From contig SHVM01000004.1 in the NCBI GenBank assembly GCA_009694265.1, positions 1-64,000 of the forward strand: DNA of 64,000 nt. The letters are read 5' to 3'. A program made the position numbers and the translations under genes. This DNA is from Pseudolabrys sp. (GTDB taxonomy: Bacteria > Pseudomonadota > Alphaproteobacteria > Rhizobiales > Xanthobacteraceae). Under the pieces are notes generated by a model, which saw only the letters and a program-made list of their open reading frames with translations, searched no databases and was not told the DNA's origin. Below are positions 8,706 to 12,416 of the stretch, in pieces. Numbering within the stretch: the first letter of the stretch is position 1; each line of letters begins with the position of its first letter.

Positions 8706-11700
8706 TCACGCCTTGCCATATCCCCCCGCCGTCGGGCTCTGGATGATGACGGCCTCGCCCGCGTCGATCACGGTCTCGTCGCAGCCTGCGAGGGCCTCCA
8801 TCCGTCCGTCCTTGCGGCGCGCCCAGTTCTTGCCGACTTGCCCCGCTTCGCCGCCCGCCAGGCCGAACGGCCGCACCCGGCGGTGGCCCGACAAGATCGT
8901 ACATTCCATTTTTTCGAGGAATCGGATGGTGCGGCGGATGCCGTCTCCGGCATGCCATTTGCCTTTGCCGCCCGACCCTAAGCGAATGTGGAAATCCTCC
9001 AGCACCACCGGATAGCGGAATTCCAAAACTTCCGGGTCGGTCAGCCGCGTATTGGTCATGTGGGTGTGCACGGCGTCGGTGCCGTTAAAGCCGGGGCCTG
9101 CCGGCGAGCCGGAGCAGATAGTTTCGTAATATTGATATTTGGCATTGCCGAAATTGAGATTGTTCATGGTGCCTTGCGCGGCGGCCAGCGCGCCGAGCGC
9201 GCCGAACAGGCAATTGGTCACCGCCTGCGAGGTCTCGACATTGCCTGCGACCACGGCGGCGGGATATTCCGGCGTCAGCATCGATTGCGGCGGAATGACG
9301 ATATTGATCGGCCGCAGGCAGCCGGCATTCATCGGAATGTCGTCGTCCACCATCATGCGGAACACGTAGAGCACGGCCGCGCGCGTCACCGGTTCGGGCG
9401 CGTTGAAATTGGTCGGCTGCTGCGACGAGGTGCCGGTGAAATCGACGGTCGCCTCGCGCTTGTGTCTGTCGACCGTGATCTTCACCTTGATCACGGTGCC
9501 CTGATCCATCTCGTAGGAAAATTCCGCATCGTGCAGCCGGTCGATCACGCGCCGCACGCTTTCGGCGGCGTTGTCCTGTACGTGCTGCATATAGGCCTGC
9601 ACCACCGGCATGGTGAACAGCGTCACCATCTTGCGCAGTTCGGCGACGCCCTTTTCGTTGGCCGCAATTTGAGCCTTGATGTCGTTGATGTTCTGCACCG
9701 GATTACGCGCCGGATATTTCGCCCCTCGCAACGCCGCCATCAGTTCCTTTTCGCGGAAGCGGCCGCGGTCGACCAGCTTGAAGTTGTCCATATAGACGCC
9801 TTCCTGCTCGATGGTGGTCGCGTTCGGCGACATGGAGCCTGGCGAAATGCCGCCGACATCGGCGTGATGGCCGCGCGAAGCGACCCAGAACAAAATCTTT
9901 TTCTTTTTGCCGTCGAACACTGGCGTACACACCGTAATGTCCGGCAAATGCGTGCCGCCGTTATAGGGCGCGTTGATGGCATAGACATCGCCGGGCGCGA
10001 CCGTTCCCTTGTTGTCGCGAATGATAGTCTCCACCGAGCGGTCCATCGAGCCGAGATGCACCGGCATGTGCGGCGCATTGGCCACCAGCGTGCCGTCATG
10101 CGCGAACACCGCGCAGGAGAAATCCAGCCGCTCTTTGATATTCACCGAATAGGCGGTGTTCTGCAGTGACACGCCCATCTGCTCGGCGATCGACATGAAC
10201 AGATTGTTGAACACTTCCAGCATTACCGGGTCGGCATGGGTGCCGATGGCATGCGTGCGCTTGAGTTTTTTCGCGCGCGTCAGCACCAGATGGTTCTTCG
10301 CCGTGATTTCCGCCTGCCAGCCGGGCTCGACCACGATGGTCTGGTGCGGCTCGATGATGATGGCGGCGCCTTTGACGCGCGATCCCGGTTTGAGCTGGTT
10401 ACGCGTGTAGACATTGGCCTTGTGCCAGGTGCCCGCGGAAAAGAATTGCGTGCGCCGCGCCGGGGCGGGCATTTTGTCGCGCGCAAGCTTGACCGCCTTC
10501 TCGTTGAATTTGGCGCCGCCGCCGACCGCTTCCACCGACACCGCCTCGACCACCATCTGCTTGGCGCGGTCGATGAAGCCGAAGCGCGCTCTGTGCGCCT
10601 TCTCGAAGGCCCGCTGCATGGCGGGCAAGGTGTCCGCCGCCACCACCAGCGCGGTATCCGTCCCGGCATATCGGATATGCGCGCGCACGAAGACCTTGAT
10701 CTTGGCCACGGGCACGCCCTGGCTAGCGACCTGGTCCTTCACATCTTTGCCGATGCGCGCGGCGATACGCTTGATCGCGGCCAGCGATTTGCCGCCATAG
10801 CCCAGCTCGATGGCTTGCTCACGGGTGGCGCGGATATCGGCGAGCCCCATGCCATAGGCCGAGAGCAGCGAGGAGAACGGATGGATCAGCACGCGCGTCA
10901 TGCCGAGGCTGTCGGCGACCAGGCAGGCGTGCTGGCCGCCGGCGCCGCCGAAACAGTTGAGCGCATAGCGCGTCACGTCATAGCCGCGCTGCACGGAAAT
11001 CTTCTTGATCGCGTTCGCCATGTTCTCGACCGCGATCTTGATGAAGCCGTCAGCGATTTCTTCCGGCTTCTTGCCGCTGACTTTCTGCGCCAGATTGTTG
11101 AAGCCATGCTTCACGGAATCAGCATCGAGCGGCAGGTTCTGGCCGGGGCCGAAAATCTTCGGGAAAAAATCCGCGATCAGCTTGCCGGCCATCACATTGG
11201 CGTCGGTCACCGCCAGCGGCCCGCCGCGCCGGTAACATGCCGGTCCCGGATTGGCGCCAGCCGAGTCGGGCCCGACGCGGAAGCGCGCGCCGTCGAAATG
11301 CAGGATCGAGCCGCCACCGGCGGCGACGGTATGAATAAGCATCATGGGCGCGCGCATGCGCACGCCGGCCACTTCGGTCTCGAAGGTGCGCTCGTATTCG
11401 CCGTCGAAATGAGAGACATCCGTAGATGTGCCGCCCATATCAAACCCGATCAGCCGGTCGAAGCCGGCCTGCTTTCCGGTTTCCGCCATGCCGACCACGC
11501 CGCCGGCCGGACCCGACAGGATCGCGTCCTTGCCCTGGAACAATTCCGCCGCCGTCAGCCCGCCGGATGACATCATGAACATCAGGCGCGGGCCACCCTC
11601 GTACTTCGAGACGCCCTCGCTCCGCTCGGGCTCCTCAGGATGAGGGCGGTTCGAAGCCTCATCCTGAGGAGCGGGCGTCAACCCGCGTCTCGAAGGACGA

Positions 11701-12416
11701 GGCGAGCTTTCAAGCTGACCGGCAACGCGATCAACATATCTCCGCAAAATCGGCGACAGATACGCATCGACCGCCGTGGTATCGCCGCGCCCGACCAGCT
11801 TGATCAGCGGCGACACTTCGTGGCTGACCGACACCTGCCCAAAGCCCATCGCGCGCGCGAGTACGGCCACCTGGCGCTCGTGTTCGGGAAACCGGTAGGC
11901 ATGCATGAACACAATGGCTACGGCGTCGATGCCATCGGCCTTCGCGGCGTTGAGATCGGCGCGCACGCGCGCAAGATCGGGCGCGTGTTCCACCGTGCCG
12001 TCGGCGCGCACGCGCTCGTCGACCTCGGCCACGCGCTCATAGACCAGGTCGGGCTTGATAATCTGGCGGGCGAAAATCTTCGGCCGCGCCTGGTAGCCGA
12101 TCTTCAGCGCGTCGCGGAAACCTTTGGTGATCAGCAGCAGCGTGCTGTCGCCCTTGCGCTCCAAGAGTGCGTTGGTGGCGACCGTCGTGCCCATTTTCAC
12201 CGCGCCGACGCTGGCCTGCGGGATCGGCTCGCCGGGCTTCACCCCCAGCAGGTCGCGAATGCCCTGCACGGCGGCGTCGGTATAGGCTTCTGGATTCTCG
12301 GACAGCAGCTTGTGCGCGGTGAGCGAGCCATCGGGCCGCCGCCCCACCACGTCGGTGAAGGTGCCGCCGCGGTCGATCCAGAAATCCCAAAGCTGGTTCG
12401 CGGTTTTGGCTGGCAT
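8706..12416 (-). CDS. Hydantoinase A/B fused protein (5-oxoprolinase-type)
   Basis: [21 protein letters not shown] start; [15 protein letters not shown]; HyuB-like [15 protein letters not shown] and [14 protein letters not shown]; carries an in-frame repeat-derived segment. Confidence 0.93.
11597..11702. repeat. Dispersed palindromic repeat inserted in frame in the hydantoinase gene
   Basis: Outer arms cctcgtacttcgagacgc / gcgtctcgaaggacgagg and inner arms ctcctcaggatgagg / cctcatcctgaggag; encodes [39 protein letters not shown]. Confidence 0.85.

Follow-up and report, generated by a model that had tools for sequence, protein, structure and literature searches.

Recurrent in-frame palindromic repeats, probably mobile, in a few loops of a fused hydantoinase A/B protein of Hyphomicrobiales

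We analyzed a window of 64,000 nucleotides, i.e., the whole stretch of DNA under study, from a Pseudolabrys-like MAG of the Xanthobacteraceae (G000; 2.49 Mb, 119 contigs, 91% complete). A gene on the minus strand (8706..12416) encodes an intact fused hydantoinase A/hydantoinase B of approximately 1236 aa, of the N-methylhydantoinase/5-oxoprolinase type. The corresponding ORF spans positions 8706-12485 (minus strand, 1259 codons) with a listed TTG start at 12485; the true start is most likely the ATG at 12416, which is backed by homologues. Four Pfam domains are recognized in the protein: Hydant_A_N (13-191), Hydantoinase_A (211-532), Hydant_A_C (655-705) and Hydantoinase_B (730-1236). The closest solved structures by sequence are N-methylhydantoinase (7hk5) and other HyuA-type enzymes, and the fold of an AlphaFold2 model of the HyuA part matches those of acetophenone carboxylase, N-methylhydantoinase and caprolactamase subunits. 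Identity to complete homologues is 84-86%. In one member of the genus (G005:C87, L193) the gene is broken into several frames with an internal TAA, which represents either a pseudogene or a MAG error. The same strand of the window carries an ordinary RNase P class A RNA (13135-13561) and an ordinary permuted alphaproteobacterial tmRNA (63283-63641).

An earlier note on this DNA had described a nested palindrome of 106 bp inside the ORF, and the arms and the fold confirm its position and length. The element (11597..11702, minus strand; site A) lies wholly within the minus-strand ORF, keeps the frame and encodes approximately residues 237-272, and the peptide is the one read in that note. The outer arms (11597-11614 and 11685-11702) are 18 nt long and 94% complementary, whereas the inner arms (11630-11645 and 11657-11672) are 16 nt long and 100% complementary. 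The region folds with -78.6 kcal/mol (z -5.5), and none of 200 dinucleotide shuffles folded as well. The architecture is a tail-to-tail pair of hairpin units of about 46 bp around a spacer of 11 bp. As read from the sequence, unit 1 (11657..11702, minus strand, 46 bp) is an imperfect hairpin, CCTCGTCCTTCGAGACGC-GGGTTGACGCCC-GCTCCTCAGGATGAGG, the spacer (11646..11656) is CTTCGAACCGC, and unit 2 (11597..11645, 49 bp), which is inverted relative to unit 1, is CCTCATCCTGAGGAGC...GCGTCTCGAAGTACGAGG. Unit 1 is 79-88% identical to single units found elsewhere in G000. A known RNA family was ruled out, as the Rfam scan of the 106-bp element matched no family.

The sequences flanking the insert had been expected to be nearly adjacent in HyuA proteins, and most homologues indeed have approximately 10 aa at that place. 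In the nearest homologues, whose identity outside the insert reaches 91%, about ten residues separate the helix from the LMFMMSSGG strand, and in the DNA alignment L117, L120, L121 and L124 are cleanly empty at site A. The palindrome-free close homologues that we examined never carry the peptide. In the AlphaFold2 model, helix 213-235 and strand 276-280 flank a segment, residues 237-269, that has pLDDT<50 and forms no secondary structure; of the surface loop suggested earlier, the disorder between helix and strand is seen in the model, whereas the surface position is a prediction. The insert peptides are rich in Pro, Ser, Glu and Arg.

The repeat is not confined to this gene. The element used as a query against G000 produced 60 matches at about 15 distinct loci (E<=0.01), so the repeat has many further copies in the genome, mostly single units of approximately 46 bp or two units separated by about 50-120 bp. 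The numbers of matches in other genomes of the genus are 77 in G001, 73 in G011, 25 in G007, 19 in G009, 13 in G020, 4 in G033 and 0 in G017, and such patchy copy numbers fit the expectation for a mobile repeat. In the window, the related short copy mentioned in the earlier note is present as a single diverged unit (47604..47650, plus strand); it is a weak match (77-79% identity, E 0.23) and is intergenic, as it is not spanned by any ORF that extends 40 aa or more to each side. Among the loci examined of the approximately 15 in G000, two are inside recognized domains or linkers, i.e., HyuA/B and the E2 protein described below. The ORFs over copies near TruB, an amidohydrolase and a Na/H exchanger (the last in G020) begin before the first domain and most likely represent 5' extensions. 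The reading as a mobile palindrome inserted in frame is supported in that the element is dispersed, preserves the frame and is missing from close homologues; its mobility is suggested by the dispersal pattern.

Site A could be read in 38 genomes of the genus, most of which are MAGs; it should be noted that the pattern is also found in cultured Mesorhizobium and Aminobacter. A full-length insert was found in eight genomes (G000, G011, G019, G020, G023, G029, G031 and G042), and 30 are without it. Parsimony requires 8 changes for these 8 insert-bearing genomes, and, in the wider homologue set, as many changes as there are distinct sequences with an insert (13); these are counts of changes, not of gains, and some of the changes could be losses. 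The tree was built from the host protein alone, and several of its forks are open. The window genome and G011 share the same repeat family at site A, and they are not sisters. Constraining them to a single clade costs 229 log-likelihood units and is rejected by the AU test (p=1.3e-8); common ancestry of the two insertions was thus discarded, which indicates that this repeat entered the loop twice, independently. The remaining six carriers have an unrelated C-run/G-run palindrome superfamily at this site. G031 contains the full element, and its near sister G021 has a single hairpin, in frame, which probably represents in-frame decay of the full element.

In 81 homologues, inserts of at least 15 aa are confined to three positions, and the same three positions emerge when the genus set is included (approximately 110 homologues). 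Site A is the loop that is filled in the window; site B follows residue ~597 and site C follows residue ~835, in the HyuB part. Both are empty in the window, where the equivalent of site B (approximately 10617..10631, minus strand) is a loop between strand 589-592 and helix 596-611, and that of site C (approximately 9900..9915, minus strand) is a loop with the residues DGKKKK. Palindromes fill site B in L039, L040 and G023, and site C is filled in L031/G020, G009, L038, L040, L072, L088, G023 and G042. In G023 all three sites are filled by two palindrome families within one intact ORF of approximately 1340 aa (L188, G023:C276:17500-22600; 1339). Compared with mononucleotide shuffles, the inserts typically fold well: L031 (-121 kcal/mol, z -10.4), L069 (z -8.5), L088 (site A, z -6.5; site C, z -7.6) and L040 (site B, z -6.9); a few fold no better than shuffled letters, e.g., site A of L050 (z -1.0). 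The insert families are multi-copy at home, with 128 and 129 matches in two Mesorhizobium genomes, the sources of L069 and L072, and 50 matches of the G020 family in its own genome. The boundaries of the inserts differ between lineages. All inserts are located in intact ORFs, and about 2-6 of the six frames are stop-free in most elements; the reading frame used is therefore of little informative value, and we dropped the choice of frame as a sign of selection on the peptide. The site C insert of L040 differs from both main palindrome families and has a tandem-like CGGACGACGGACGACGG character.

A second host gene is found in G000 on contig C64 (L015, 95-1783, minus strand), where a dimer of the window family is located in a dihydrolipoamide acyltransferase, the E2 of pyruvate-dehydrogenase type, within the linker that joins its lipoyl domain to its E3-binding domain; this dimer can be aligned to the HyuA elements of both G011 and the window. 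Of the 27 readable E2 linkers of the genus, six contain the window family (peptides such as SSFETPAARAPQDEAKKSPHPEEARSAVSKGEGG) and four, judged by their peptides, contain the other main palindrome family; the assignments were made by eye. Linker states require 6 changes on the HyuA tree, which served as a stand-in for the species tree. Two other genes were used as controls. Among 31 LigA sequences the largest internal insert is 5 aa, and no palindrome family was recognized in an AsmA-like protein of 1178 aa, which has a variable tail and two N-terminal inserts of 17 aa. The lack of palindromic inserts in both genes suggests that the pile-up is not general to long genes here, although two controls are few. 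The recurrence at site A, at sites B and C and in the E2 linker was missed in the earlier note; it needs other genomes to be seen.

These results are best explained by insertion of a mobile palindrome dimer in a tolerated loop of HyuA/B, with a survival filter, rather than targeting, stacking insertions at a few sites; we assign this reading a probability of about 0.87. A BIME/MITE-like dimer of two inverted hairpin units of about 46 bp would have been inserted in frame in a loop that is predicted to be solvent-exposed and length-tolerant, and would be translated as a disordered insertion of 35 residues that the enzyme tolerates. Several unrelated palindrome families may insert widely across these genomes, and genic insertions would persist only if the frame is kept, no stop codon is introduced and the site is a tolerant loop or linker; some would subsequently be reduced, in frame, to short remnants. 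Positions would thus be set by tolerance, i.e., by purifying selection, and not by the choice of target. With 2-6 of the six frames open, many insertions pass the frame filter and the place is the stringent one; since few places in proteins satisfy these conditions, independent insertions pile up in three HyuA/B loops and the E2 linker. Loop tolerance suffices to account for the data.

It could be argued that the mobilizing machinery recognizes a DNA feature at these loops (e.g., GC-rich or hairpin-prone DNA) and that selection merely cleans up afterwards. At least two families have repeatedly hit one short stretch, and there are precedents: REPs are described within other palindromes and at about the same site of recB in two Xanthomonas species (PMC3733652), and the biotin ligase of Rickettsia and Wolbachia is a rare case of two families at the same place and is considered a possible palindrome hotspot (PMC3767692). 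However, the DNA of site A and of its flanks shows no conservation between relatives, insert boundaries vary by lineage, and the insertions of unrelated families at three loops and in the E2 linker have protein flexibility in common, with no visible DNA motif. We consider target preference unlikely, although it is the alternative to be taken most seriously. An origin of the pattern in assembly or binning, or in a decaying pseudogene, might be suspected from the MAG source and from the fact that repeats often break assemblies; nevertheless, the intact ORF of 1.24 kaa with four Pfam domains and 84-86% identity to complete homologues, the position of the element in the middle of the 64-kb contig, and the recurrence of the phenomenon in many independent assemblies, some of them from isolates, make this scarcely credible.

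Repeated gain at one loop would also be produced by positive selection if the peptides or mRNA hairpins were functional, e.g., as linkers, in regulation or in translational pausing. The filling of three loops in one genome, the repeated gain in the E2 interdomain linker and the Pro/Ser/Glu/Arg-rich composition, which suits flexible linkers, are consistent with such exaptation, which the earlier note had proposed. Conversely, 30 of the 38 genomes do without the insert, the sequences of different families are unrelated and have no conserved motif, and the insert shrinks in a near sister (G021 compared to G031); we regard exaptation as improbable. The palindromes of Hyphomicrobiales may also be viewed as a standing supply of disordered linkers, with the HyuA/B loops and the E2 linker refilled because the segments or their mRNA hairpins are useful. 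This is hardly more probable than exaptation; if true, it would mean that the same proteins are remodeled time and again, and convergently, by mobile DNA.

Palindromic elements of Rickettsia (RPEs) were classified in the families RPE-1 to RPE-10, credited to Ogata and Claverie, and Wolbachia has palindromic elements as well. The likeness to RPEs proposed in the earlier note is apt with respect to palindromy, dispersal and in-frame insertion. RPEs are described as palindromic repeats of 100-150 bp that have entered numerous unrelated genes in frame, at positions exposed to solvent (PMC10969869, PMC3767692), and R. conorii is reported to have 44 in-frame gene insertions (PMC10969869). Correspondingly, the window element is a nested palindrome of 106 bp with about 15 loci, and its family is in frame in two unrelated genes of G000 (HyuA/B and the E2 linker). 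Both are alphaproteobacterial in-frame genic palindromes, and the likeness drawn here concerns the kind of phenomenon. Unlike RPEs, the elements studied here are GC-rich and belong to free-living Hyphomicrobiales, and, within a single genus, unrelated families have filled one loop over and over again.

The element also resembles REPs and BIMEs in its small hairpin units, which are found both singly and as inverted dimers. The GTAG and CGTC superfamilies of REP/BIME elements, some of them intragenic, are treated by Di Nocera et al. 2013 (PMC3733652), where REPs are described as singletons or inverted dimers that are mostly intergenic and sometimes encode 20-30 aa in genes. CGTC elements are typical of alphaproteobacteria, and the description given for them includes an unpaired CGTC tag, a stem of 8-9 bp beginning with AT, a loop of 4-5 nt and a CCA tail, with terminal CCTC variants (PMC3733652). 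The window element has CCTC variant ends and an outer stem of 9 bp; however, the terminal CCTC is paired with GAGG (the REP tag is unpaired), the loops are longer, no CCA tail was seen, and the unit is about 46 bp, compared to 20-40 bp for REPs. The site C copy of G023 has CGTC ends. A RAYT-driven REP was set aside, because the Y1/RAYT transposase profile (PF01797) found no match in G000 (91% complete) or G011 (99% complete); both positive controls, E. coli and Caulobacter, were matched. MITEs, such as Correia elements and the QMITEs of Coxiella, are non-autonomous, palindromic and dispersed and can fuse in frame with genes (PMC10969869), whereas the window element consists of short GC-rich hairpin units, with flanks too diverged for target-site duplications to show. 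Br-REP1 and Br-REP2 of Bradyrhizobium, a member of the same order, are likewise dispersed palindromes, but their consensus sequences, CCGGAATCTCGAGATTCCGG and CGAGATTCCGGGTTCGGCTCTT-CGAGCCGCCCCGGAATGA (PMC5082802), are unlike the window unit. Our literature search for palindromes in hydantoinase retrieved nothing.

Palindromes read in frame as protein are a textbook curiosity of Rickettsia, whose small populations make it hard to tell whether they are of any consequence. What is new here is not the in-frame palindrome, which was already known, but its setting in free-living Hyphomicrobiales and the repeated filling of the same loops by multiple families. Recurrence in one loop, where near relatives display the empty, the full or the decayed state, provides replicated natural experiments on how often proteins grow through mobile DNA, on the loops that accept such additions and on whether the extra peptide is neutral or retained; an old idea on protein growth thereby becomes testable. 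For annotation, it is a warning that low-complexity stretches rich in Pro, Ser, Glu and Arg in these proteins are repeats, not features of the protein family.

A second dispersed palindrome, of the form CGTCATGGCCGGGCTTGTCCCGGCCATCCACG, is located in the window at 23377-23409, 24633-24723, 28927-28953 and 37408-37498, often as pairs about 60 bp apart; with its CGTC tag and CCA tail, it fits the published description of CGTC REPs.
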